IMG/VR virus record: IMGVR_UViG_3300014914_000031
Span: 1 to 28,122 of that record
Source: a virus
Strand: one strand, 5' to 3'
Length of the DNA: 28,122 nt
Position 1 is the first letter of the stretch. Each line of letters starts with the position of its first letter. The notes below the pieces were generated by a model. The model saw nothing but the letters and a program-made list of their open reading frames with translations. It did not search any database and was not told the origin of the DNA. The translations under genes and the position numbers were made by a program. Of this stretch, positions 1-14,938 are shown piece after piece.

Positions 1-374
1 CATGTACCTAGCCCCAGAGCTGCGCCGCCAAGAAGCTTGCCCATCTGCTCCCCTTTATTCGGAGCGTCACTCTTCATTATTTTGTAGCCTTCATACGCAG
101 GTAGCCCGTAGAAAAGGCCGCCACCTACAGCACCCATCACGCCTTTACCGGGGTGGAACCCTTGCCGAATTAAGCTGCCTTTAGCTAAGCCTTGACCTGA
201 CATAATCTGCTTGGATGCTTGGATAGGGTTACCTACGGCCATCTCTTTTACGGTCTTACCGAAACCTTTAAGCTTTGGGAGTACTTTGGTCGCAAGAAAA
301 CCAGCGCCGCTGGCTTCTTTAGTAATTCCTAAGCGGTACATTGTCTGAATGTAGCCTTGTTCGTACGGTAACAT
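1..374 (-). CDS. Glycine-rich phage protein, C-terminus beyond window
   Basis: An open minus-strand frame starts with ATG at 374 and runs off the left edge, giving about 124 residues. It begins MLPYEQGYIQTMYRLGITKE. The start overlaps the stop of the upstream beta' C-terminal gene (ATGA), which supports translational coupling and this start. The visible part is basic up to about residue 70, then has a glycine-rich hydrophobic stretch (around residues 80-100, including GAVGGGLFYGLPAYEGY) and another Gly/Ala/Leu run at the window edge (GKLLGGAALGLG). Such segments suit a membrane-active or virion-internal protein, but this is inference. I do not recognise a family. It is the last visible member of the RNA polymerase-containing minus-strand operon. 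Confidence 0.7.
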   Translation of the reverse strand, partial: MLPYEQGYIQTMYRLGITKEASGAGFLATKVLPKLKGFGKTVKEMAVGNPIQASKQIMSGQGLAKGSLIRQGFHPGKGVMGAVGGGLFYGLPAYEGYKIMKSDAPNKGEQMGKLLGGAALGLGT

Positions 375-2173
375 CAATAGCGCCCCTTTTTACCTTGGCC
401 AAATTCTAGGCCAAAAGCGTACGCAGGAACAGGGCTTGTTCCGTGGATGTTAGAAATGTCTCCGAAATGAGCGCCCTGCTGAATCGTAGCTTTCAAATTT
501 CTGTGTGCTAATCTTGCCATCCAATCGGGATTAAGAAGGGGCGCCCGAGTTGCAGGTTTCATTATAAACTCTACAGAAGGGGCCCTCGGAGCTATAAGAA
601 CATTCTTCACCCCTTCCTTACGTAAGTCCTTCACTACGTTGGAAGTTACTCGTGTGCCTGCAGTGTGTTGGAGATATTCTTTCCCTAAGGTTTCTCCCTT
701 GGCATCATTGAGAGAAAGTGTCTTGGTGTTGTTGCGCAGGATCGTCCTGAAGTGGTTGTAGTTTACGACATCCCCCGGAATAAAGTTTTTACTGGGGTCT
801 TCCAGGATCTTTACGTGGTTAAGTTCCCCTTTGGCCAAGAGTTCAAAGTGGCGTTGGTCTAGGTTACGTCCCTGATTTTTGTACAGGTCTTTCAGCGTAT
901 CTACCATGTAGCGCCGACCAGCACCCAACCCTTTGTACTTCACTACCTCATCAGGTTTAGGGATACCTTCACCCAACGCATCTCCTCGGGTCACCGTGTC
1001 CCCGGCCTTCACTTTGACACCAAGATTGGGGCTTATGTAGTGCTGGGTTGTACCGACATTCACAAAATGTCCTCCCTGAGGAGCCTTCTCTACTCTGCTT
1101 ATCTTGCCATCCTCTGAGGCCAAGGTGGCTTTATTTTGGAATTGTTTGGGAGACTCGATAATCTGCCTAAAGCCTTCCATTCCCTGAACCTGCATTCTAT
1201 CTGAGGCAACGGTACGGACACCATGCTTAGCATTCAGTGCGAATTGTGTGAGGGGCTCAGACATGGCTTGTGCCGCTCTGATTCCTACGTTGGTCCCGAT
1301 GTCATGTGACCCACCATTCTCATTGAGGCCCTGACATTTCTGACATACACCATCACCGGCCTCACAGGTCATAGGAGAACGCACAAGTACTTTCTTCTTA
1401 TCTTTCGCTAACCGCGCCTGTCCCTGCGGAGTGATGAGTGTTCCTGCCTGAAGGCCGCTCTCGGTCCTGGCCAGGTACCTATCTACTACGTCAGGACTCT
1501 TGGCTTCCATGAGGATACCGTTGGTTGTTCCGCAATCACTCTCGGTAACAACGATGTCGTTCATGTTGTTTACCAGAATCTTGGACAACTCTCCCGGTTC
1601 TGAAACTGAGGTACTGGACTTAATTGCGTCCATGATAGCTTCGTTTCCAGCTGCATAGTAGTCTGCAGGAGAAAGTCCTTCGCTATATGCGCGCTCAATA
1701 ATCCAGGGAGTGACTTTTCCGTTAGCATCTCTGGCATATACTGGGCTGCCTACAATCTTCATGTATTGAGTGGGAGAACCTCGAGCACCACTCTGTACCT
1801 GCTTAGTCATACTGCCACCATGTCGCATAGAGGAATCTAGTACACGATTAAACGCCTGCTCTGCAGCATTTCGGCGCTGAGTGTCCGTTGTGGCACGTCT
1901 GAACTGATCAACATAGGGCCGCATTACAGCGTCACGCTTCCCGTACTCGGGAGCAATATCGTCCAGACCAATGGATAACCCTTCCTGGGTAGCTACCTCG
2001 TCCCCCACACGCTTAAGAGAGGTGATCGTGCTTGTGTACAGCGTAGGATTGTTTTTTGCCAGGGTGTTCATCATCTGGTTCAGCCGCTTCTTACCTAATG
2101 CACCAGTTATTTTGTGTCCTGAAGGCAATTGTTCATTGAGAAGAAAGCGCCCAAATGGTTGCGACTCAGCCAT
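374..2173 (-). CDS. RNA polymerase beta' subunit, C-terminal half (separate gene)
   Basis: This 599-aa protein is the missing downstream part of the beta' subunit whose N-terminal half is fused to beta at 7880-14770. Recognisable landmarks in order: LSIGLDDI (residues about 66-72, bacterial 'VSIGIDDM'), the bridge-helix region around 160-188 (GLSPADYYAAGNEAIMDAI), the four Zn2 ligands C214, C270, C277 and C280 (ESDCGTT; MTCEAGDGVCQKCQG), and the trigger-loop region 293-322 (NVGIRAAQAMSEPLTQFALN). Further downstream are the KVKAGDTVTRGDALGEG barrel-like segment and the clamp-proximal C-terminus (YKGLGAGRRYMVDTLKDLY). It should assemble with the beta-beta'N protein to form the catalytic core. 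The start ATG overlaps the upstream stop (TAATG). The split from beta'N by nearly 6 kb and seven genes is unusual. The identification is firm from motifs. Confidence 0.93.
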   Translation of the reverse strand: MAESQPFGRFLLNEQLPSGHKITGALGKKRLNQMMNTLAKNNPTLYTSTITSLKRVGDEVATQEGLSIGLDDIAPEYGKRDAVMRPYVDQFRRATTDTQRRNAAEQAFNRVLDSSMRHGGSMTKQVQSGARGSPTQYMKIVGSPVYARDANGKVTPWIIERAYSEGLSPADYYAAGNEAIMDAIKSSTSVSEPGELSKILVNNMNDIVVTESDCGTTNGILMEAKSPDVVDRYLARTESGLQAGTLITPQGQARLAKDKKKVLVRSPMTCEAGDGVCQKCQGLNENGGSHDIGTNVGIRAAQAMSEPLTQFALNAKHGVRTVASDRMQVQGMEGFRQIIESPKQFQNKATLASEDGKISRVEKAPQGGHFVNVGTTQHYISPNLGVKVKAGDTVTRGDALGEGIPKPDEVVKYKGLGAGRRYMVDTLKDLYKNQGRNLDQRHFELLAKGELNHVKILEDPSKNFIPGDVVNYNHFRTILRNNTKTLSLNDAKGETLGKEYLQHTAGTRVTSNVVKDLRKEGVKNVLIAPRAPSVEFIMKPATRAPLLNPDWMARLAHRNLKATIQQGAHFGDISNIHGTSPVPAYAFGLEFGQGKKGRY

Positions 2174-3856: not shown

Positions 3857-4603
3857 TTAATACCGCGGCTGACTTCTTTGCAGGGCCTCTGCCGCGTGAC
3901 CGTAGCCGCGCTTGCGCAAGTCAGCTTGCTGTCCTGCAATCCGACGTCCTTCTGCAAGACCGCCAGCTGCTCCGACACCGCTTCCAAGAAGAGAACCTAT
4001 CACTATATCCCCGATAGAACTATTGCTACCGAGTGATCCTATAGCGGCACCCGACAATGCACCCTGGACCCCCCCGCGCAAGGCCTCCTGCCGCCCTCGC
4101 CTAGATGCCTCCGCTTCGTACTCCTCAGGAGAGACTTTTTCGACTAAATCCGACTGCGCTTCCCGCGTGTATTGTTCTAGCAGTTCCTGTAAGGTACCCT
4201 CATCTATGTCGTAAGGTATCCTCCCTCTTCGCGCTATATCTCCTGTTACCTGCCCATAATGTTTTGCCTGACTAGCAGCACCTCGTCGAAGCAGTTGGCC
4301 AAGACCTGCTCCCGCACCCGCACCTATTCCAGCACCGATGGCCGCCCCTCCAGCTCCACCTGCACCCGCACCTACAAGACCTCCGATCCCTGCGCCGACA
4401 CCTCCCCCAATGAAAGGAGCCTTGCGCCCTCCTCGGTATGTAGTGTCATATTCTCCCTGAGCTCTATCGGCAACATCTTGCTCTGATATACCTTCACGCA
4501 GCCGCCTGCCGGCTACTCCTCGCGCAATCTCTTCATCTGTAATGGAGCCTTCAGCACACTTAAGAAGGGCTTCATCTGCTATCTGGTTTGCTGTTTTACG
4601 CAT
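3857..4603 (-). CDS. Tagged glycine-zipper protein (probable membrane-active virion protein)
   Basis: This encodes 248 residues, starting at ATG 4603 behind AGGAAGG. It begins with the shared tag MRKTANQIADEALLKC, found in three other proteins of this region. After a charged segment come two glycine-zipper blocks: residues about 65-105 (repeated GxGxGxGG patterns such as GGVGAGIGGLVGAGAGG) and about 178-215 (GVQGALSGAAIGSLG, IGSLLGSGVGAAGG). Between them is a charged helical stretch. Such Gly/Ala zippers occur in membrane-inserting and ejection proteins, so a role in membrane penetration or as an internal virion protein is plausible, but this is inference. The gene sits in the polymerase operon. 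A 39-bp DNA segment covering its start region is repeated exactly at 5000-5038. Confidence 0.8.
   Translation of the reverse strand: MRKTANQIADEALLKCAEGSITDEEIARGVAGRRLREGISEQDVADRAQGEYDTTYRGGRKAPFIGGGVGAGIGGLVGAGAGGAGGAAIGAGIGAGAGAGLGQLLRRGAASQAKHYGQVTGDIARRGRIPYDIDEGTLQELLEQYTREAQSDLVEKVSPEEYEAEASRRGRQEALRGGVQGALSGAAIGSLGSNSSIGDIVIGSLLGSGVGAAGGLAEGRRIAGQQADLRKRGYGHAAEALQRSQPRY
4559..4603 (-). repeat. Tag peptide copy A (N-terminus of glycine-zipper protein)
   Basis: The codons specify MRKTANQIADEALLK. The DNA segment 4572-4610 is identical over 39 bp to 5000-5038, and resemblance continues into the ribosome-binding region (AGGAAGGCCAAAAGAAG against GGAAAGGACCAAAGAAG). Confidence 0.9.
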
Positions 4604-4632
4604 CTTCTTTTGGCCTTCCTAAATATTGTCTG

Positions 4633-5031
4633 TTAGCTTGCGGGTCCAACTTTTCCAAGTGGGCCAAAGAGACTAGTACTGCCACCTACCTCGTCAGGAT
4701 GTGGCGTCAGCGCTCCTCCGAAAGGATTATACGCATTTTCACCTTTGCGGTGCTGATCAGCAACGTACTGTGAGTGCCGTGCCGATGCAGTAGGGTGGTC
4801 GCCGTCCTCGGTACCAAACCTAAGAGTTGCTAGCAAATTTGCCCAATTTCTACTTCCATCGGGATTAGCATGCCCAATCGCGTCCTCCTCTTGGAGCCTT
4901 CGCGCTTGCGCCAAATATCGCTGGGTATCTATGTCTGCCATGTCAGCGTCAAAGGCGTGGCCTTTATCTGTCACAGAAAATCCTAGCTTAGTTAGAGCCT
5001 CATCTGCTATCTGGTTTGCTGTTTTACGCAT
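4633..5031 (-). CDS. Possible internal-start product: tagged 132-aa protein
   Basis: The in-frame ATG at 5031 is preceded by AAAGGA at about 9 nt. Its upstream sequence is homologous to the ribosome-binding region of the independent tagged gene starting at 4603. Translation would give 132 residues starting MRKTANQIADEALTKLGFSV and ending GPLGKVGPAS, mostly hydrophilic (DTQRYLAQARRLQEED; ARHSQYVADQHRKGENAY). Whether this is made in addition to the 318-aa form cannot be decided here. No family recognised. Confidence 0.4.
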   Translation of the reverse strand: MRKTANQIADEALTKLGFSVTDKGHAFDADMADIDTQRYLAQARRLQEEDAIGHANPDGSRNWANLLATLRFGTEDGDHPTASARHSQYVADQHRKGENAYNPFGGALTPHPDEVGGSTSLFGPLGKVGPAS

Positions 5032-5589
5032 CTTCTTTGGTCCTTTCCATACGGTACCTATTAGCTTGTAGATAAGCTTAGTCTGTTTGGGTGTAAACAG
5101 CCAACGCTTGTTTACTGTCTTATCTGCCCAGGACTTCGGAGTGTTTCCGCGCTCTTCCGACATGGCGCACCAATCGGCAACCATTTCTCCGATATCGAGG
5201 TCTGACATCTTAGTGGCGTCAATGGCCTTATCTGGAATACCGTCCCTGTCTCCCTTAGCTAGAAGACCCGTCTTTTTAGATTGATGAAACTCCGGGTGGT
5301 GAGCGTTGTTCAAGATGTGGTGTTCCGCGGCTCTATCGATTCGTGCCTGCATACCCTCGGGCAGCTTAGGGTCGACTCCATCATCTTTACACTTGTACTG
5401 CCACGTAAGCCAGATGTACGGTTCGAGCTCATCTTTACCGTACTTACTAGCATCATGTGCTTTCCCCCGCGCTATAATTCCTTCCATCTCCGGGAACTTT
5501 TTAGCGATAATACCACAGTACTTCTGCACCAAGGAGATGTGGCGTTTGGTGCGTGTTTCGAAGTACTTTTTTATCTCAGGAGTGGCCAC
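4633..5589 (-). CDS. DUF5662-like protein fused in frame to a tagged C-terminal region
   Basis: This encodes 318 residues. It starts at GTG 5589 directly after the helicase stop (TAAGTG), with only a weak GGGA upstream. Residues 1-185 resemble the phage DUF5662 family, an HD-like fold: GKAHDASKYGKDELEPY, then AEHHILNNAHHPEF and MVADWCAMSEERG supply conserved His/Asp positions. Catalytic activity is unproven. At residue 187 an in-frame Met opens the shared tag (MRKTANQIADEALTKLG), followed by about 115 residues of hydrophilic sequence without a recognised domain. The junction falls exactly at a tag start codon preceded by AAAGGA, so the frame may be a fusion of two ancestral genes or may express a second, shorter product. 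Confidence 0.75.
   Translation of the reverse strand: MATPEIKKYFETRTKRHISLVQKYCGIIAKKFPEMEGIIARGKAHDASKYGKDELEPYIWLTWQYKCKDDGVDPKLPEGMQARIDRAAEHHILNNAHHPEFHQSKKTGLLAKGDRDGIPDKAIDATKMSDLDIGEMVADWCAMSEERGNTPKSWADKTVNKRWLFTPKQTKLIYKLIGTVWKGPKKMRKTANQIADEALTKLGFSVTDKGHAFDADMADIDTQRYLAQARRLQEEDAIGHANPDGSRNWANLLATLRFGTEDGDHPTASARHSQYVADQHRKGENAYNPFGGALTPHPDEVGGSTSLFGPLGKVGPAS
4987..5031 (-). repeat. Tag peptide copy B (internal in the DUF5662-like frame)
   Basis: The codons specify MRKTANQIADEALTK. It shares an exact 39-bp segment (5000-5038) with copy A at 4572-4610, then diverges at synonymous sites (GAG GCT CTA against GAA GCC CTT). This suggests recent duplication or gene conversion between neighbours. 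Confidence 0.9.
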
Positions 5590-5838
5590 TTATTTTTTCC
5601 CAATCTCAGGATACTTAGCGCGGACTTTTGCACGTACTTGAGCCTTCTCTTCACTTGTCCCGAACTGGGAAACTCTAGCTAAGGCGTTGCGTGCATGTGC
5701 TTTATCTGGAATAGGATACGCTTCTTTATCCGGTACTGCAAATTGCTTCTTTGGAAGGGCGTCACGTCTGGCTGTGGACAAGACTGCACCACACTTGAGA
5801 AGAGCTTCATCTGCAATTTGATTCGCTGTTTTTTCCAC
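5590..5838 (-). CDS. Possible internal-start product: tagged DUF6582-like small protein
   Basis: An in-frame GTG at 5838 has AAGGA 7 nt upstream, a better ribosome-binding arrangement than several accepted starts here. The product would be 82 residues: the tag (M/V-EKTANQIADEALLKCG) followed by a complete DUF6582-like domain. Phage genes of this family usually stand alone near head genes, which favours an independent small protein recently joined to the helicase frame. Alternatively it is simply a helicase C-terminal domain. Confidence 0.45.
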   Translation of the reverse strand: MEKTANQIADEALLKCGAVLSTARRDALPKKQFAVPDKEAYPIPDKAHARNALARVSQFGTSEEKAQVRAKVRAKYPEIGKK

Positions 5839-7224
5839 TGTAGATTCCTTGTTACGTAACAAATCAAGCAACTGGCTATTCAATGCTTTTTTATTTTTTG
5901 CCATATTCGCCAACACATGCTCTACACCTTCAGGTGTTCTCCCCAAAAGGCCACCTATAACGCCGGGACGTGGATGGGCGATATACCTTCGAACATCAAC
6001 TTCGCGCTCTTTTTCAGGTAACGTGCCATGCGATCCATGTCGGATAGCCCGACCAATTACCTGCTCCAGCTTCTCCTCATTCCAATGAGGCTCTAGAACC
6101 TGGACCTGGCGGGTATTCTTCAAGTCCAAGCCTTCACCGCCTGCAGAGGATAAGAGTAGAGCGCGTATCTTACCTTCATTATAGTCACTGACAAGTTGTG
6201 CGCGGGACTTCTGGCTCATCTTTCCGGTGAATACCCCATGTGGAATCTTAGCCTCGCCTAATGCTTTAGAATAGTCCCCTAGTGTGTCCAGGTAATTAGA
6301 ATAAACTACAGCATTACCTTTGCCTCCCTGTAAGTCGGCTAACGCCTGTTGCAGCTTAGGGGTAATCTTCGTCCCATCGCCCTTCTCGAACCTCTTGGTC
6401 GAACCACCTATCTGTCGTGTCTGTGACTGGAACACATTAAGGCGTGGGAGGTCTTGCTTGGAAGGGGGCAAGCCTGCCTTAAGTCGCATCCTCGATGTGA
6501 AAGGCAATTTCCCCCAGGCAAGATCGTGTAACTGCGTCTGGGATTTTGACATAGGGACAGTTACGGTAGTATCCGTACGGCGAGGAAAATCCCCGCCTGA
6601 TTGTTCGTGGTAGTCCACCCACTTAGATAGTTGAGCGCGAAGCTTTTTTTTATTCTTCAAAGAAGGTTGCGTGTTTCCTCCGAGTAATGCTCGAATAAGA
6701 CTATCGTCAGGCTTTTGTACGTACTCCAAATCAAACTTTGAGCCTGTAGGGAGAACATCTTGTTGTGCAACCAAATTCACTAGTGGTGCGATATCGGAAG
6801 GACGATTATATACGGGAGTGGCTGTCAGCAGCATCCGTTTAGCTGCGGGGTATTCGCGGAGGAGTTTGTATAGTTTTGTATTAGGGTTTCGAGCTCTATG
6901 TGCCTCATCCACAGTGAGTAGTCTCACAGGAGTACGCTCATCTCTGAGAGCAGCTCCTTGGGCACTTTGCACGTCGATACTAGAAGGCCCTTTAATATGC
7001 TTCGCTATCTCTTTTTTGTAATTTGCAACTAGAGAAGCGGGCGCCAACACTCGAGAGATTCCAGGAGTATCCTCGGCCGCTGCGATAGATGACAGTGTCT
7101 TCCCGGTACCTAAACCATGCGCGACTAATAGCCCTGGCTGGTTGCGCAGGCGCTCAACTACTCGTTGTTGGTGCGGCAATAGCTCGGTAGTTAGTCCTGC
7201 ACGCTTGGTACTTCTGAGAGACAT
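5590..7224 (-). CDS. SF2 helicase/ATPase of viral NPH-I-like type with tagged DUF6582-like C-terminus
   Basis: This encodes 544 residues from ATG 7224, with GGAGG and GGGGAT upstream. Motifs: LLPHQQRVVERL (Q-like), Walker A HGLGTGKTLSS (about 36-46), LLTVDEAHRARNP (DEAH), RMLLTATPVYNRPSD (motif III), the C-lobe SSAGGEGLDL (motif V) and EQVIGRAIRHGSHGTLPEKE (motif VI). The last is very close to the QxIGRAIRxxSHxxLPxxxR pattern of NCLDV NPH-I/VETF-type transcription helicases. Given the polymerase next door, a role in transcription initiation, termination or recycling is a reasonable inference. From residue 463 the tag appears as VEKTANQIADEALLKC, followed by a short domain (KKQFAVPDKEAYPIPDKAHA, then ARVSQFGTSEEKAQVRAKVR) typical of DUF6582 phage proteins. 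That C-terminal piece may also be translated separately. Confidence 0.9.
   Translation of the reverse strand: MSLRSTKRAGLTTELLPHQQRVVERLRNQPGLLVAHGLGTGKTLSSIAAAEDTPGISRVLAPASLVANYKKEIAKHIKGPSSIDVQSAQGAALRDERTPVRLLTVDEAHRARNPNTKLYKLLREYPAAKRMLLTATPVYNRPSDIAPLVNLVAQQDVLPTGSKFDLEYVQKPDDSLIRALLGGNTQPSLKNKKKLRAQLSKWVDYHEQSGGDFPRRTDTTVTVPMSKSQTQLHDLAWGKLPFTSRMRLKAGLPPSKQDLPRLNVFQSQTRQIGGSTKRFEKGDGTKITPKLQQALADLQGGKGNAVVYSNYLDTLGDYSKALGEAKIPHGVFTGKMSQKSRAQLVSDYNEGKIRALLLSSAGGEGLDLKNTRQVQVLEPHWNEEKLEQVIGRAIRHGSHGTLPEKEREVDVRRYIAHPRPGVIGGLLGRTPEGVEHVLANMAKNKKALNSQLLDLLRNKESTVEKTANQIADEALLKCGAVLSTARRDALPKKQFAVPDKEAYPIPDKAHARNALARVSQFGTSEEKAQVRAKVRAKYPEIGKK
5794..5838 (-). repeat. Tag peptide copy D (internal in helicase frame, GTG start)
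   Basis: The codons specify V/M-EKTANQIADEALLK. Residues 3-13 match the other copies exactly, but many codons differ (GCG AAT CAA ATT against GCA AAC CAG ATA), indicating older divergence with the peptide conserved. Confidence 0.85.
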
Positions 7225-7245
7225 CCTATCCCCCTAACCTCCCAT

Positions 7246-7878
7246 CTAGGAAGTATATGTTGACGTAAAGTATCTGTGTGGGGACGCCTGAACGCGCTCC
7301 AGTATCTCAGGCTGCACTGTGCTGTTTACGTCTGTATTCAATAGATGTAAAAGACGTTTTTTGTCAATGTATCCTTTTTCGGATGATTTACCGCTATAAG
7401 GGTCAGTGTCTCCGTAGGGGTACATTGCAGCAATGCCGGTATATTTGTCCATGTTACCGTAAGCAGTGCCTCCTAGAAGTTTGGCTCTCCCAGATATATC
7501 GAGATTTTCAGGAGCAGGGCCCATCTTTTCCGCATAATCTGCTGCCGCCCGTTTTCTATCTGCCAGGTATTTTGCGTGTGCCGGGTTACTTCTGGTCGTC
7601 GGTAGGCCTCTTAGCCTGTCTATAAATCCTAGGGGGATATCCTCGTATGTCGCAGGAACGGCCCCCAACTGCTTGTGTAAGGCTTGAGACTGAGCATCGT
7701 AGTACTTTCGGACAGCAGCCCAATACTTCTTAGTTGCCTCAGGATCCTCTTGATACTCGTCTCCCGCGGCGCGTAATGCCTCAAGCTTCTTGGGGTCATC
7801 GAATCCTACGATATTTTGGTAGTAGCCTGCACACTTAAAGAGAGCTTCATCTGCTATTTGATTTGCGGTTTTACGCAT
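7246..7878 (-). CDS. Tagged protein of unknown function, directly downstream of RNA polymerase
   Basis: This encodes 210 residues. The frame opens at 7890, but ATG 7878 is preferred: it begins exactly with the tag (MRKTANQIADEALFKCAGYY), has GGAAAG upstream, and overlaps the polymerase stop by only a few bases rather than extending into it. After the tag the protein is hydrophilic, Tyr- and Ala-rich and probably helical (KLEALRAAGDEYQEDPEATK, YWAAVRKYYDAQSQALHKQL), with a C-terminal GYIDKKRLLHLLNTDVNST. There is no signal peptide or clear transmembrane segment, and no family is recognised. Close coupling to the polymerase gene and the tag suggest a protein made and possibly packaged with it; this is inference. 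Confidence 0.75.
   Translation of the reverse strand: MRKTANQIADEALFKCAGYYQNIVGFDDPKKLEALRAAGDEYQEDPEATKKYWAAVRKYYDAQSQALHKQLGAVPATYEDIPLGFIDRLRGLPTTRSNPAHAKYLADRKRAAADYAEKMGPAPENLDISGRAKLLGGTAYGNMDKYTGIAAMYPYGDTDPYSGKSSEKGYIDKKRLLHLLNTDVNSTVQPEILERVQASPHRYFTSTYTS
7834..7878 (-). repeat. Tag peptide copy C (N-terminus of 210-aa protein)
   Basis: The codons specify MRKTANQIADEALFK. It differs from copies A and B at several synonymous positions (ACC for ACA, AAT CAA for AAC CAG) while the peptide is unchanged over the first 13 residues. Confidence 0.9.
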
Positions 7879-7879
7879 C

Positions 7880-10800
7880 TTACTTTCCAATCTTCATTCG
7901 GGTACCTAGATCAATTTTACCGTCATTATACGCCTGCATGGCATCTTTTCTCGTTTTAAAAACTACGGTCTTATTTTTGTTGTCCTGTTCAGAGGCATGG
8001 GCGATTCCCATGATAGCTTCGTGTTGGGGGAATACCATTAATTCATCTCTGGATTTATCTCCAAAGAGAAGGTTAGAGAGTGTCATCTTCTTCACGTCCT
8101 CTACTGCTTTAGGTTGTACAGGGGCATGTACCATCATCGTATCGAAGACAATTAGCTGGTTAGCCGTCATGAAGGTATTGCCGTCTGGAACCGTAAGATC
8201 CCACGCAGTGTGTCGCCCTTCAATAGGCACAACTGTTTCGATGAAGTCCCAGTGAATATCTTCGTTAGTAACAAGTTCAAACCAATTGCCAATGCTATAC
8301 GCCTGAACAACCTCTTCACCCAGAGTCCTGATTACGTCGTAAAGAGCTTCGCGGGAAATTCTTCCGTCCTTCGCAGCATTCGCCAGCTTACGGTACCGGT
8401 TACCTACCGCCTTACGCGCAGTCGCTATTTCTTCTGTCATATTTTTCAGCTTCTTAGACGCATTACCGTGGGTCTTACGAAGAGCTTCGGCCGTACTTAT
8501 TGGAATGGGCACCATGTCCCAACGCGCAGACGTAGCTTCGTTAGGGTCAAAGACTACTTTACTTAGTTTGGCTAGAACTAACCGCTTAGCTTTGTGTGCG
8601 CAAGGAATCTCCGCAGCTATTTTCGCCACATCTGGAGTCGAAAAAGACACCTGGCAGTACCAGTTCCCCTTCTTTTTTTTCTGGTACCATGAGGTGTTAC
8701 TCCTGATGCCCAACATAGTACACAAAATTCCTACGTGGTCTGCTAGCGCCTCAGACATAGTAGTGTACTGCACCATGTATTGAGGTTTGTTTTTAGCCTG
8801 GGCCTTAACAATCGACGCAGAACCGTCAGTGTCGAGAAGTCCTCCGAGTAGCCCCAACAAAAACTCTCTAGGAGCACGCACAAAATACGAAGGTAGCTTC
8901 TTGTTCTTAGCGCCGCGACAGTCTTCCGTTAACTCTCCCAAAAATCTTGCAAACTTTCCAGAGTTAACATGCGTCTTTTTAGATACGCACTTGACGCCAT
9001 TGAACTCGTGTTCATTGACGTATTCCGTGATAGACACTCCCGGCAGGAAATCAGAAGTGATTCTGTCGAATTTCTTCTTAATTTCAGGCTCGACGGTTGC
9101 CAGCCCTACATTAATATATTTTCGATCTTTTGTCCCAGTCACCCACCCATCTCCAGCCCATGCACCTATGTACCAACCTGTATCGCTGTTAAGTTCCGCA
9201 GTATCACAAACGGTACTGTCTTTCAGCGCGACTTCATGCAGCTGTTCCGCTGAAAACAGCTTACGAGGGCGAGGGGTGCCCCAGCCAATTCCATCCTCTG
9301 CCTTAAAACGCTCTAGCTCCCCTGTCGCAGGGTTCAATCCGAACATACTATGGTCGCGTGAAACTTTTACCTTTCGTCCGGTCCTGGTCTCTACCTCTAC
9401 CATTTCCAAGTCATGGTGCACACTGAAGTGCGTAACATCGCACAGCACTACTTTCTGTTGGTCTTCGCTGAAACCAAAAACTTTTACTCCAGCAGGAACC
9501 TCGTACTTTTCTTTGTTACCTTTCATAGCCGCATTCTCCTTGATGTGCGGGCAATCGCTTATGTGCAAACGACTATACTTCCCATCAATCACGAATGCAA
9601 GGTGTGAATCCGCGCTGTCACCGTCGTAATCGGCCGAGAGGCCCTTCTCCATAAAGGGATTTATGCGAATAGTCTTACCTGGAACGGGCTTAGGGTATGC
9701 CCCGAGCATATTGTACCTGTGCAGAGTAGGAGCCCTATTGACCATGACGGGTCTTTCCTTAGCTTCACGCAGAATAGCCTCACGAGCAGCAGGGTGTTTT
9801 TTCTTGATAAGATCCTGGGCCTCCAAGGGCTGATACCCGTTATGTACCAGACGCTTAACCGCAAACTTGTCATACATAGACCAGAGCATGTCCTCAGGAA
9901 GACCTACCTCATCAAGGCCAAGGGTAGTGTCTGGAACAATCGTTCCTCGTCCGGAAATGTCCTGAGTTCTTCGCATAAGTTTCGAATGGAAGTAGCCGTA
10001 CTTAGGGCTTCCTTTGCCTGCAATATTTGTCAGAAAACCTTTGTGCCCTCGCGCTTGAGACTTCAAAGTTGCCGGCTCATTTACCCCGTAAACCGCTCCA
10101 ACAGCCTCTTGCAGTGCCGGACGTAACTTAGCTTCTTCCTCAGGCAAGATTTTTATTTTCTTCACATCTTTAAATTGGTTGTTCAGATACACAAGGTCAC
10201 GGTAAAGAGGGTTCGCATCTCCGTACATTATTTCCTGTCCTCCCTTACCGGGAATAACGGGACGAAATACTGGAGGAATAACTGGAACTTTAGACACGAT
10301 GTACGCCTTGTCTGGCGTAAGGTTCTGTGACTTTAAGGCTCTTATGTACTTAAGCTGCTTTACGTCCCCATCTAACGTAGAGCCACTCTTACGTTTAATG
10401 CCTGCACGTAACGTTTTCTCTCGAGCATCCAGGTCAATCTTCTTAAGTTCAGACTTGATGTGCTTGCCGCCCTTTTCTTTAATTGCGGTATTCAGTTGTG
10501 TATTTGTCATCCCCAGAAAACGGCGCACGGGCTCCTTAAATACAGGGCTCACTATTGGTTCAGCCAAGTCAATATGCGACCACTTGGTACCGCGTAGGCC
10601 TCCTGTCATAGCCGGGTCAAACAGTCCTCCACGTTCCGGCTTAAGATCTTTGGCGCGAATAATCTTGGCGTCTTTAATTTCCCCTGCGGAGAGTTTGAGG
10701 GTATCTGCATCCGTCAGCGGTCCTAGTGAAATAAAACTTCCTTTACGCTCTGAACGGACACCTGCGCCTGTAAGCATGTTCAGAAACTTATCTGCAGCGA

Positions 10801-13800
10801 AAGTAGTCTTTGGAGGAGGCGTGGGATATCCGAGCTGCATGTTCCTCCACCACTCATCGTTCTTCTGGCTCTTTAGGGTCGCTGCTTCCTGGAGAACATT
10901 TCGCGCGTTATGTGCCAATAGGGCATCCATTTCCATTCGCCCTAGAACCTTGGCACTCTGGCTTCCACCTTTAGCGGGCTGCAGGTTTACGTCGTAATTT
11001 TCTACTCCACGAGCAGAGAAGTTTGTGTCCGTAGATTTAAAAAGCTTCAAGGTATATTGGCGACCGACCATCACACCCGGAATCTTCTTACCTGTCCGCG
11101 GGTCGTACACGGTCTCTTTATCTTTAAGCCCGTGCTTCTTAAGGAGATCTTTGGCCCATCGAACATTGTTGTTCCCGGAAAAATTCTCCACCTTAATAGG
11201 CTTACCTGTTTTTTCTACGACCTTGCCCACTGCTGTCTCAATAATTTGACTCGGATTAATTCGAGATACCACGCCTGCAGGAGTAAGCAGAAGGTCGAGG
11301 GTATTTCCTTTCTCGTCCTTTATCATCTGGTCGTCTGGAACAATCTGTGAAATGACACCTTTATTGCCATAGCGCCCAGAATTACCCGACCAAACAGGGG
11401 TACCTTTAACCCGCACATATAGTATGTGGTTAGGTACTGTAATTCCCCAAACTGGTTCTTTCGACGGAACGATACGTTCTGATTGGCCATTTTGAGTACG
11501 TGTGTGCCCGTGGTTAACTTGTGGCTTGCATTTTTTACGCACGATGGATACACGATAACAGGTACTCCAATTAGGGTTCTCTTGTATGTTTACTTTTATG
11601 TTAGCAGCATACCCTGCATGAAGCGCCAGTCGCTGTACATCATCTGCTAATTGCTTAGATACTGTAGTATATACTAAGCTTCCTGTCGCAGTAGCGTGTC
11701 CGTCACAGCCTAGTAAGCCTTCCAGCATCGCCTCAGCAGCATCTGCGCCCCACGAAAAAACTTCACGTGGAATATGTTTGTGTTGTGCGTGCCCAAACTG
11801 AGAAAGGTATTCAGTCAGTTGTCGTGAAGAAATAATATGGCGATCTTTCCTCTGTTGTCCAGTAAACCCACAGTCTGCAATGAGCGTTTTTATCCAAGAA
11901 TGTTGGTCCTTGGAGATACTGTGGTGCTGTCCTTCTATAGTGTGTACCTGCGTGCGGTACTCTATACTGTAATTTTTATCTTTGCGTGCGTGTATCGTGT
12001 AACTCCCATTGGCCAGATAAGCACCTAAAAATCTACACCAAGCTAGCGTGTTTACTACAGGCAGCAACTTAGGTTTACGCCCCGAACCTTTGCGTTCAAT
12101 CCCTGGGATACTGAAGGTAATAGGTGTGGCCCAGTGCCATTTGCCGTCTTTTTTGTGTCGCACACGTTTTCCAATAACCTCGTTTGCGGGAGTAAGAGTA
12201 AATTTTTTACTCCCCCGCTTTTTGACATACAGGTTATGGTTCGGAGTAACTCGCAAGTTAACTTGTTGTGACTCAAGCTCGTACAGTTCTCCGGCTTCAG
12301 CGTACTGGTGCAGTGCGGTGGGTGCGTGCAGTTCAATGTCCCCTTTTTGATTTAACGTATAGCAGATAGTGTCGTACCGCACGTCTGCTACCGGTACCCA
12401 TCCCTCCGATGTCAGCACCTCCGTGTCTTTCGTGTAACAGAGCTTGTCCCCGATAGTAGCGGGCTCCCGAGTTTTCACTGTCAAGGCAATACGCTTAGGT
12501 GTCTTAACTACGTCAATCACTTCACCGGGATGTTCATGGTCCCATGTCTCAGTGCGCTCACGGAAAGGTACCGCCAAAGACTTGTGTAGCTTTCCAAGCA
12601 AGAGATCGTCAGCAGAGAGCTGTGATTTACGGAGGCCAGCCACTAAAGGATCCCCCGGATTAATTTTGGTTCCAGGGCGCATCACCCCATCTTTGTCTAG
12701 GGCATTGTACTGGTCTTTAGTGTAGTCGTGCCCGTAGTAAGTTTTGTGTTTTTCCTTGTTGAATGTCAGGTCGGGATCCCTGGGAAGGACTACCTTGTAC
12801 ATACGCTCTGACGTGAGCTTCTTGGCACCCTTCTCACTGACTACCACTGCGTCATTGGAGTTCGCTCCGTCATACGCCATGTACGCTACTCGAAGATTTC
12901 TCCCTAACGCAAGCTTCCCGTTTCTCGTGAAGTTGGACTCTCCGAGCTGCTGCCCAGTAGTGACCCTGTCACCCTTCTTAACCTTAAGATCATGATTCAA
13001 ATACGTCTTTGCGGCTAGGGGGAAGTTGTGCTCGTAAGGAACCTTTATCACGGTCCCTCCGACAGCACCGGTCTTCACTTTGTCAGGACGGATATAAATA
13101 TAATCGTCATCTACTTTAGTGACTACTCCGTCCACAGGAGCGTTTGGGTTAATCACCCCTCCCATGATGTGCTCAAAGGTTGTCCCTGTATCTGACTTCA
13201 CCTGGATGAAAGGTTCTTCTCTGTCTACCAAAGAAAGAGACTGTACCTGCATCTTGGATCCCATTACTGCACGGTTCCCCTGCGCTGACTCCAGGAACGG
13301 GATCAGGTTAGTCGTGGGGCTGTACAGAGATGATACATGCGGCATCTGATATTTAACCTTAGACGCAGACACCTTACGGAGTTGCCCATCCTCCAACGCG
13401 TCAACTGTCCCAGACAGCTTCTGGTTTGGGAATGCAATAATTGATTTCTGCAACTGGCCAGCACGAACGTAGGTGCCCTTACGGCTCTTAGCGTCTATCA
13501 GGGGTACATAAATATTCCCTCTCGCGTCACGCTTAGCTGCCATTGCCGCACGCACATCGATCCCTGCCCGAAAAGATTCCGGGGTTCTGATAGGGTCAAG
13601 CGCGCCTAGCTGTGTAACATGTACCTGCCGAGCTTCCATAGGAATAGCACGCTCCGACGAGATTCCACCCTCTCCCAAAGAAGTGACCCGCATAGATGCG
13701 TCGATCAACTCCATAGGATTCGTCTGAGTAGGTACAGATGACAATTGAGAGCTGTTCAGAAACTTAATAAGCCCGGAAGTAAATGGTCCGGAAGGCATAA

Positions 13801-14770
13801 TCCTTTTTACGTCAGGTGTAGCCTCTGACTTAATTATTGCTTTGCGCCCAATGTCTCTGGCGTCGAGCTTAATGCGCTCCTTAAAGAAATCATCGACACT
13901 ATGGAACGTCTTGAAGTCAAGATTGTCACGGTCATCTACTTCATCTGTGTTCTTAAATATGCGCAGGACTTTATTTGAAGCATCCAGAAGACTATCGGGA
14001 GATACTTTATCGTAAGCCTTTCCCAATGTCTGCTGCGTAACTTCCGGATCCATTTTTGCGTCATCATATTTTTTAAAAATCTCAGTTATCTTTGTATCTG
14101 AATCCGCTCCGGCAGTACGTCGGTACTCGGGTACGAGCTTGGAGTAAAGTTTGTCTACTGTCTTGTCTGAATTTTTCCAGAGTTTCTTGAAGTTGGTATC
14201 TGCCAGTTGTTTCCCCCAGGACTTGGCAATACGGTCGTGGTCCATGCCGGACTTACGGAGGATAGGATAAAGGGGAATCTTAGTAGTCCCGTACTCTAAT
14301 TGGGGTTGGCCCTTTTCAGGATCCATACTCACATTAAAGTTAGACCCACCTACGACATTGAAGCTGGCTTCCAATATACCGTTAGCACGTTTTCGCGCAT
14401 AGACTCCGGGCTTAGGGCGTACCATGTTTGAGACGGAGTACTCATTGCCTCCTACGATCATAGTATGTCGGGGGGTGAACCAAGGTACTCTGGCAAGAGT
14501 AAAGTCTTTTTCCTCTCCTACAGTTGCGCCCTTCTGATCTTTCAGTTTAACTGTGCCCTTAACACTCTCAAACAACGTGTCTCCACGCAAGATAGCTTTC
14601 TTCTGTAGATTGGAAGAATAGTCCTTCTCGTCAAACTTAATATCAGACACTTCAAGAACACGGTTACGCGATTTCAAAGGGAAGGATTCCTCGAGGCCTT
14701 CCTTTATCTTCTCACGGATCATTCTTCTTCGCGTACCGGGATCTACCAAGACTGATGTTAGTTCGGGCAT
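7880..14770 (-). CDS. RNA polymerase beta - beta' N-terminal fusion with two inteins
   Basis: This encodes 2296 residues from ATG 14770, with GGAGG 6 nt upstream. Residues 1 to about 1330 are beta: an N-terminal lobe (VPWFTPRHTMIVGGNEYSVS), the GDKL...SGRYGNKGVIS active-centre segment split by intein 1 (778-1130), and GRMEMDALLAHNARNVLQEA near the beta end. From about 1340 it continues as beta' (LSAGEIKDAKIIRAKDLKPE, SGRGTIVPDTTLGLDEVGLP, NRAPTLHRYNMLGAYPKPV) to the catalytic loop ADYDGD (D1714, D1716, D1718). There intein 2 (1719-2210) interrupts before TMMVHAPV. The frame ends 86 residues later, so bridge helix and trigger loop must come from the gene at 374-2173. The mature spliced protein would be about 1451 residues. 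The beta' N-terminal Zn1 cysteine module appears to be deleted between GLFDPAMTGG and KWSHIDLAEP. The polymerase call is very secure; exact domain edges are approximate. Confidence 0.95.
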   Translation of the reverse strand: MPELTSVLVDPGTRRRMIREKIKEGLEESFPLKSRNRVLEVSDIKFDEKDYSSNLQKKAILRGDTLFESVKGTVKLKDQKGATVGEEKDFTLARVPWFTPRHTMIVGGNEYSVSNMVRPKPGVYARKRANGILEASFNVVGGSNFNVSMDPEKGQPQLEYGTTKIPLYPILRKSGMDHDRIAKSWGKQLADTNFKKLWKNSDKTVDKLYSKLVPEYRRTAGADSDTKITEIFKKYDDAKMDPEVTQQTLGKAYDKVSPDSLLDASNKVLRIFKNTDEVDDRDNLDFKTFHSVDDFFKERIKLDARDIGRKAIIKSEATPDVKRIMPSGPFTSGLIKFLNSSQLSSVPTQTNPMELIDASMRVTSLGEGGISSERAIPMEARQVHVTQLGALDPIRTPESFRAGIDVRAAMAAKRDARGNIYVPLIDAKSRKGTYVRAGQLQKSIIAFPNQKLSGTVDALEDGQLRKVSASKVKYQMPHVSSLYSPTTNLIPFLESAQGNRAVMGSKMQVQSLSLVDREEPFIQVKSDTGTTFEHIMGGVINPNAPVDGVVTKVDDDYIYIRPDKVKTGAVGGTVIKVPYEHNFPLAAKTYLNHDLKVKKGDRVTTGQQLGESNFTRNGKLALGRNLRVAYMAYDGANSNDAVVVSEKGAKKLTSERMYKVVLPRDPDLTFNKEKHKTYYGHDYTKDQYNALDKDGVMRPGTKINPGDPLVAGLRKSQLSADDLLLGKLHKSLAVPFRERTETWDHEHPGEVIDVVKTPKRIALTVKTREPATIGDKLCYTKDTEVLTSEGWVPVADVRYDTICYTLNQKGDIELHAPTALHQYAEAGELYELESQQVNLRVTPNHNLYVKKRGSKKFTLTPANEVIGKRVRHKKDGKWHWATPITFSIPGIERKGSGRKPKLLPVVNTLAWCRFLGAYLANGSYTIHARKDKNYSIEYRTQVHTIEGQHHSISKDQHSWIKTLIADCGFTGQQRKDRHIISSRQLTEYLSQFGHAQHKHIPREVFSWGADAAEAMLEGLLGCDGHATATGSLVYTTVSKQLADDVQRLALHAGYAANIKVNIQENPNWSTCYRVSIVRKKCKPQVNHGHTRTQNGQSERIVPSKEPVWGITVPNHILYVRVKGTPVWSGNSGRYGNKGVISQIVPDDQMIKDEKGNTLDLLLTPAGVVSRINPSQIIETAVGKVVEKTGKPIKVENFSGNNNVRWAKDLLKKHGLKDKETVYDPRTGKKIPGVMVGRQYTLKLFKSTDTNFSARGVENYDVNLQPAKGGSQSAKVLGRMEMDALLAHNARNVLQEAATLKSQKNDEWWRNMQLGYPTPPPKTTFAADKFLNMLTGAGVRSERKGSFISLGPLTDADTLKLSAGEIKDAKIIRAKDLKPERGGLFDPAMTGGLRGTKWSHIDLAEPIVSPVFKEPVRRFLGMTNTQLNTAIKEKGGKHIKSELKKIDLDAREKTLRAGIKRKSGSTLDGDVKQLKYIRALKSQNLTPDKAYIVSKVPVIPPVFRPVIPGKGGQEIMYGDANPLYRDLVYLNNQFKDVKKIKILPEEEAKLRPALQEAVGAVYGVNEPATLKSQARGHKGFLTNIAGKGSPKYGYFHSKLMRRTQDISGRGTIVPDTTLGLDEVGLPEDMLWSMYDKFAVKRLVHNGYQPLEAQDLIKKKHPAAREAILREAKERPVMVNRAPTLHRYNMLGAYPKPVPGKTIRINPFMEKGLSADYDGDSADSHLAFVIDGKYSRLHISDCPHIKENAAMKGNKEKYEVPAGVKVFGFSEDQQKVVLCDVTHFSVHHDLEMVEVETRTGRKVKVSRDHSMFGLNPATGELERFKAEDGIGWGTPRPRKLFSAEQLHEVALKDSTVCDTAELNSDTGWYIGAWAGDGWVTGTKDRKYINVGLATVEPEIKKKFDRITSDFLPGVSITEYVNEHEFNGVKCVSKKTHVNSGKFARFLGELTEDCRGAKNKKLPSYFVRAPREFLLGLLGGLLDTDGSASIVKAQAKNKPQYMVQYTTMSEALADHVGILCTMLGIRSNTSWYQKKKKGNWYCQVSFSTPDVAKIAAEIPCAHKAKRLVLAKLSKVVFDPNEATSARWDMVPIPISTAEALRKTHGNASKKLKNMTEEIATARKAVGNRYRKLANAAKDGRISREALYDVIRTLGEEVVQAYSIGNWFELVTNEDIHWDFIETVVPIEGRHTAWDLTVPDGNTFMTANQLIVFDTMMVHAPVQPKAVEDVKKMTLSNLLFGDKSRDELMVFPQHEAIMGIAHASEQDNKNKTVVFKTRKDAMQAYNDGKIDLGTRMKIGK
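8141..9616 (-). mobile_element. Intein 2 with LAGLIDADG endonuclease, in the beta' catalytic loop
   Basis: The 492-aa insert lies between ADYDGD and TMMVHAP; removing it restores the canonical alignment ADFDGD-xMxVH. It begins with Ser1 (SADSHLAFVIDG) and has a block-B-like VKVSRDHSMFGL. Two LAGLIDADG-like motifs are present: WYIGAWAGDGWV and LLGLLGGLLDTDGSAS, both keeping the acidic residue. Block F/G is HTAWDLTVPDGNTFMTANQL followed by IVFD, with Thr as +1 nucleophile. The last residues Phe-Asp replace the usual His-Asn, so the splicing chemistry is non-canonical or depends on Asp. The endonuclease looks intact. Confidence 0.9.
11381..12439 (-). mobile_element. Intein 1 with degenerate LAGLIDADG endonuclease, in beta
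   Basis: The 353-aa insert lies between GDKL and SGRYGNKG. It starts with Cys1 (CYTKDTEVLTSEGWVPVADV), has the block B TPNHNLYV, and ends with the block F/G segment WGITVPNHILYVRVKGTPVW then SGN before Ser+1. Terminal Asn is kept, with Gly in the penultimate place instead of His. Endonuclease motifs are FLGAYLANGSY, where the usual Asp is Asn, and LEGLLGCDGHAT. Splicing looks viable; DNA cleavage may be impaired. Confidence 0.9.
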
Positions 14771-14795
14771 AGAAGTCCTCCAGAAAGTTATCAGA

Positions 14796-14825
14796 AGTAT
14801 AAGACAGTCAATGCTAATTCGTAAA
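14796..14825 (-). promoter_or_regulatory. Candidate promoter for the RNA polymerase gene
   Basis: In the 168-bp gap 14771-14938, the minus strand has TATACT (14801-14796), 18 nt downstream of TTTACG (14825-14820). This would place a transcription start about 20 nt before the ATG at 14770. A TTGACT (14811-14806) is also present but too close to pair with that -10. The string TATACTT is also found upstream of the sigma gene. The rest of the gap shows nothing beyond the ribosome-binding site and a G8 run at 14930-14937. Confidence 0.35.
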
Positions 14826-14938
14826 GACCTATTGGTATAAGCGTATGTAGTCTAAAGAGGCTTACACAAAGAAAGGAAGCATCATGGTTATTGTACCGTT
14901 CTTGATCTTAGCGATTTTCCTGTAAACGCGGGGGGGGT

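Follow-up and report, generated by a model that had tools for sequence, protein, structure and literature searches.

What might a short peptide be doing at the start of four proteins that otherwise have nothing in common? This question is raised by the virus record IMGVR_UViG_3300014914_000031, which is a fragment of a larger, uncultured phage and whose complete 28,122 bases are our window. The peptide, here named the tag, occurs four times on the minus strand. Because it is shared by unrelated proteins, is present in related phages and ends in an apparent protease site, we consider it probable that the tag serves capsid targeting and processing: it would be a label that loads proteins into the phage head and is later cut off.

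The tag and its distribution

A preliminary description of the window had placed copies of the tag at 4603, 5031, 5838 and 7878, each at a start codon. These positions are exact, with a GTG codon at 5838 and ATG at the others:

4553..4603, minus strand: tag A, MRKTANQIADEALLKCA, N-terminus of a glycine-zipper protein; own ATG with AGGAAGG upstream; predicted cut after LLKCA
4981..5031, minus strand: tag B, MRKTANQIADEALTKLG, within the DUF5662 frame; own ATG and AAAGGA
5788..5838, minus strand: tag C, VEKTANQIADEALLKCG, within the helicase frame; GTG start with AAGGA
7828..7878, minus strand: tag D, MRKTANQIADEALFKCA, ATG start at 7878

The window copies follow the pattern MRKTANQIADEAL-x-K-[CL]-[AG]. 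The full unit comprises 17 residues, M-R or V-E and then KTANQIADEAL-x-K-[CL]-[AG], and KTANQIADEAL is identical in all four copies. After removal of the tag, pairwise comparison of the four proteins revealed no similarity among them, in agreement with the earlier statement that they are otherwise unrelated. A BLAST match pointing to distant homology of the B and D proteins was carried by the tag and was gone once the tag was removed. Over 12 codons, pairs of window tags have 3–6 synonymous codon differences and 0–1 amino-acid differences; since the differences are mainly synonymous and the core is invariant, the proposal that selection acts on the peptide is supported. The flanking DNA of the four tags is dissimilar, except upstream of A and B, where 20 of 24 bases match. 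Tags B and C do lie inside other frames, as had been described, B after a DUF5662 domain and C after an SNF2-type helicase, and both have a start codon with a Shine–Dalgarno match. Across the group set, Shine–Dalgarno matches are stronger at the ten internal tag starts than at the other 3,986 internal ATGs that are in frame (p = 7e-5).

A search with the exact string TANQIADEA gave no match in viral contigs beyond the window, so looser patterns were needed. With relaxed patterns, tagged proteins were found in other viral contigs, for which simple open-frame gene calls were used. The search of related phages proposed in the preliminary description yielded, by profile scan, 27 tags in eight records (the window and contigs G001–G007), all from a single phage group related to Salmonella phage Arash, with which the tag-bearing records have RNA polymerase (RNAP), portal, terminase, protease or capsid genes in common. 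The group consensus is K-T-A-x-[QE]-I-A-x-x-V-L-x-K-V-A. The window copies score 42–48 bits and most of the 27 tags score 27–48 bits, whereas shuffled sequence scores about 14 bits at most; these controls account for composition but not for every aspect of protein structure, and the related-phage sequences are non-independent draws. One tag, at 47610 in G006, is at noise level (13.5 bits), and another, at 39838 in G007, is weaker and partly degenerate (20 bits).

The preliminary description had allowed that the pattern might turn out to be a common domain N-terminus occurring outside this phage group. This was not borne out by a search with the strict pattern: among 84,980 genomes of bacteria and archaea it has no match, and its viral matches all fall in the same phage group. 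A tblastn search of isolated phages with a 20-residue query also found no match, and in the open-access literature that we searched, neither the tag nor a K-x-A prohead site is described. Scanning the head modules of 79 further loci (L091–L169) returned known tags only, suggesting that tagged genes lie mostly elsewhere or are confined to a subgroup.

Glycine-zipper proteins are tagged in the window (A), G001, G004, G006 and G007, DUF6582-like proteins in the window (C) and G001, and a LigD-like protein in G004; the rest are unknown proteins. The tag is retained by orthologues, as the orthologue of cargo A at 39028 in G007 (E 2.4e-28) and that of cargo C at 142595 in G001 (E 1.9e-19) are also tagged.

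K-x-A sites in head proteins and in cargo

The tag ends in L-x-K-x-A, a motif recognized from the relatives: K-x-A is present in 23 of the 27 tags and K-x-[AG] in 25. The preliminary description had instead suggested cleavage after A-D-E within the tag. We reject this cut because A-x-E is not conserved, occurring at those positions in only 8/27 tags; a conserved [AGS]-x-E of the phiKZ/SPN3US type is thus missing from the peptide.

The virion proteome of Arash ('Arashvirus') is known (PMC10585845). In Arash proteins represented in virions by five or more unique peptides, [LIVM]-x-K-x-A occurs at 44 sites against 15.8 expected (sd, standard deviation, 3.6), while proteins undetected in virions contain 2 sites against 6.6 expected; this set is not an independent test because the motif was first noticed there. 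Independently of this set, the head modules of G001, G002, G003, G004 and G007 have 13, 23, 25, 16 and 6 sites, respectively, against about 3 expected in each. The remainder of these genomes is much nearer expectation, the largest excess being in G003 (20 against 9.6).

Gene position was the first guide to five scaffolds and five proteins next to them, and then to the scaffold of Vibrio phage D69. Among 64 candidates for the scaffold-like gene that follows the protease gene, chosen for at least five K-x-A each, 643 of 1024 lysines are in K-x-A and only 128 in A-x-K. K-x-A numbers 516 against 151 in scaffolds, where A-x-E is mildly enriched (365 against 268). The N-arm of the capsid protein has K-x-A in all 42 clean sequences, at residues about 25–33 or, where starts are extended upstream, as far as 43; one further frame artefact was excluded. 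The protease core is itself flanked by K-x-A, before it in 63/64 and after it in 60/64 sequences, where the background is 18%, and an alignment of 26 sequences shows no variation at K233 or A235. In the AlphaFold model, the protease is ordered at about 39–232 and disordered at 1–36 and 233–248, which places both K-x-A sites at the borders of the core.

VIA-align ranked T4 gp21 first among structures similar to the protease core (Z 9.8 over 129 residues), followed by herpesvirus assembly proteases. Plain Foldseek matched gp21 weakly, and a PDB sequence search with the protease found nothing relevant. The family match is to PHROG 18299, head maturation protease (E 2.4e-11). By its gp21/assemblin fold and its family match, the enzyme in the relatives is a gp21-like prohead protease. 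The pattern in head modules, scaffolds, capsid N-arms and protease borders makes K-x-A the likely cleavage site of this protease group, with Lys at P3 and Ala at P1. The putative K-x-A rule extends to phages well beyond those with the tag, as it applies to protease ends, capsid N-arm and scaffold in the 79 loci mentioned above.

The cargo downstream of the tags avoids the motif: K-x-A was observed 13 times against 34.5 expected (sd 5.0; z −4.3). The same cargo has no deficit of A-x-K, R-x-A, E-x-A or K-x-V (ratios 1.21–1.37), and K-x-G is reduced (ratio 0.56). Untagged open reading frames have a ratio of 1.09. It is as if the cargo were exposed to a K-x-A protease, for which such avoidance would be expected. 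In G007, a fused protein of 857 residues includes a paralogue of the window A cargo; the free version has VLAKVA followed by AITPEEIA, and the fused one MSKAA followed by AITPEEIA. The fused paralogue keeps AITPEEIA after a bare MSKAA, indicating that the putative site and mature start survive the loss of the other tag parts. The 857-residue frame of G007 (39829–42402, plus strand) contains two tags and a bare MSKAA site and looks like a head polyprotein; part of it resembles ATP-grasp enzymes by eye.

A probable head-loading label and its alternatives

Known systems offer several comparisons. The capsid-targeting sequence (CTS) of T4 is a peptide of about 10 residues on internal proteins that is cut by gp21 (PMC9958956, PMC5694885). 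Like the T4 CTS, the tag is a short N-terminal peptide on unrelated proteins, with starts and Shine–Dalgarno sequences of their own (B and C in internal frames); the group's protease has the gp21 fold, and it would remove the tag at its end motif. Unlike the T4 CTS, the tag has about 17 residues (KTAxxIAxxVLxKVA) with a putative K-x-A cut, and it is also seen between fused domains and, with internal starts, inside frames. In P1, a signal in the first 30 residues of DarB suffices to load a reporter into heads, and no sequence shared by the Dar proteins was found (PMC9024508). Head loading by an N-terminal signal, established there by the reporter, would be the shared feature, whereas here one sequence is common to many proteins. 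In phiKZ and SPN3US, gp245 acts at A-x-E sites, many of them in propeptides, and the capsid protein, protease and internal proteins are matured (PMC10052503). Proteolytic maturation of the head is presumably shared with these phages, but the motif is A-x-E there and K-x-A here, and SPN3US propeptides mostly have 111–254 residues against about 17 here. We do not claim descent from the T4 CTS or the P1 DarB signal; the likeness would be one of working.

Arash has homologues of the RNAP, portal, major capsid protein, protease and helicase, and it has K-x-A in the protease, major capsid protein and scaffold. On the other hand, the tag is not found in Arash. Since Arash virions contain RNAP and helicase, Arash packages them by a route other than the tag, and the RNAP genes carry no tag. 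The earlier idea that the tag loads the transcription machinery therefore finds no support in the form given. From the preliminary interpretation, a selected tag belonging to the T4-like class of targeting plus processing is supported, and the A-D-E cut and the loading of RNAP by the tag are not.

We propose that the peptide M-[KR]-K-T-A-x-x-I-A-x-x-[VA]-L-x-K-[VC]-[AG], which probably forms an amphipathic helix, carries the protein behind it into the prohead core, where the prohead protease would then cut after the terminal L-x-K-x-A (L-x-K-[VC]-[AG]), as it would in the scaffold, in the capsid N-arm and at its own ends. The cargo (glycine-zipper, DUF6582-like and two unknown proteins) would stay inside the head, possibly for ejection. 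Within the longer frames, tags B and C may be both an internal translation start and a cut site between enzyme and cargo. The window helicase could be carried in through the in-frame tag C; a separate small tagged protein may equally be made by internal initiation.

The tag could also serve processing only, as a prohead-protease cut site and linker that splits polyprotein-like head proteins, with targeting left to other protein parts. Tags do stand between domains in B, in C, in the LigD-like protein of G004 and in polyprotein-like frames of G001 and G007, and K-x-A by itself suffices in the MSKAA case. However, a large number of tags are genuine N-termini that have a start codon and Shine–Dalgarno sequence of their own, and the conserved I-A-x-x-V-L exceeds what a cleavage site requires, because the scaffold sites do without such conservation; we regard this explanation as unlikely. 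Less likely again is a docking peptide for a shared partner outside the head, such as the phage RNAP, a helicase complex or an intracellular compartment. It would suit the window, G003 and G004, in which tagged genes are located between those for RNAP beta and beta', whereas elsewhere tagged genes are distant from RNAP, the tag ends in the head-protease motif and the cargo avoids K-x-A. The bases common to A and B upstream of their tags would fit a reading in which a gene start, with its ribosome-binding site and first codons, was duplicated recently and provides translation starts, the peptide itself being functionless. The 3–6 synonymous differences with the peptide held, and its conservation across diverged phages and orthologues, argue against such a duplication, which seems highly improbable. 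Chance, as separate origins of a common helix N-terminus, can practically be set aside, as the strict pattern is absent from the bacterial and archaeal genomes searched and the profile scores already contradict it.

Several observations weigh against a capsid-targeting and processing sequence. Neither Arash nor D69 was found to have the tag, indicating that packaging across the wider group does not depend on it. The 28-kb record does not include the window's own genes for protease, scaffold and capsid, and their properties are taken from relatives. Tags B and C end in K-x-G, which is not enriched in scaffolds (the cargo avoids K-x-G too), and the presence of another K-x-A at the start of the tag (MRKTA) makes the cut position uncertain. 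The avoidance of K-x-A in the cargo is based on 4,255 residues. Several motif-bearing Arash proteins have near-complete reported peptide coverage, in a column that looks unreliable. That the tag is a copy of a scaffold helix (consensus G.AFADaA; for example, FADTVMNKFA in G004) is speculation, the likeness being one seen by eye and not above shuffled sequence.

Experimentally known capsid-targeting sequences come from very few phages (T4 and P1 in the literature consulted). If true, a recurrent readable tag would allow the packaged proteins of uncultured phages to be listed from sequence alone, and the putative K-x-A rule would predict the mature ends of capsid, protease, scaffold and cargo proteins over dozens of contigs. 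A wider view, which we hold at even chances, is that of a transferable prohead peptide code in widespread uncultured large phages: the 17-residue tag, N-terminal or between fused domains with internal starts, would load varied cargo and be removed by a new K-x-A-specific protease, and any gene gaining the tag would become packaged cargo. Being short, the tag is also a candidate means of bringing proteins of choice into phage heads in the laboratory.

Genes around the tags

The tagged genes of the window and their neighbours are as follows:

306..377, minus strand: a second N-terminus type ending in the same motif, YEQGYIQTMYRLGITKEA, in the gene after beta'
3857..4603, minus strand: cargo gene A, 248 amino acids, glycine-rich with 14 GxxxGxxxG; Gly-zipper match below the curated cut-off
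4633..5031, minus strand: cargo gene B, 132 amino acids if begun at the tag; function unknown
5059..5565, minus strand: DUF5662 domain (E 1.2e-27), in frame upstream of tag B with no intervening stop
5590..5838, minus strand: cargo gene C, 82 amino acids, DUF6582/phrog_16160-like domain
5851..7185, minus strand: SNF2-type helicase, homologue of Arash gp217, a protein found in virions
7246..7878, minus strand: cargo gene D, 210 amino acids, no family match, directly after the RNAP beta gene
7880..14770, minus strand: fused RNAP beta/N-terminal beta', untagged, with two intein-like inserts; a marker of the phage group

The DUF5662 domain covers residues 9–177 of its frame, and tag B comes after it. 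In the helicase frame, the Arash homologue aligns to residues 14–458, and tag C stands just after the helicase, ahead of the DUF6582/phrog_16160-like domain. The site between RNAP beta and beta' is a recurrent one for tagged genes (window, 3857–7890; G003, 41580–43339; G004, 12996–14934).

The second N-terminus type, [FY]xxGYxxALxxLGLxKxA, ends in K-x-A and is found in the gene after beta' in the window, L105, L106, L107, L109, L110 and L116. It may be another head-processing leader.

The inserts in the RNAP beta/beta' frame comprise a LAGLIDADG match near residues 1013–1081 and an Intein_splicing match at 1761–2208, and a 75%-identical RNAP homologue in L005 (10001–14353) is intein-free. A long intein-like insert is also present in the prohead protease of L159 (10001–13039, plus strand), where it lies right at the SMG motif, the home of the likely nucleophile serine.

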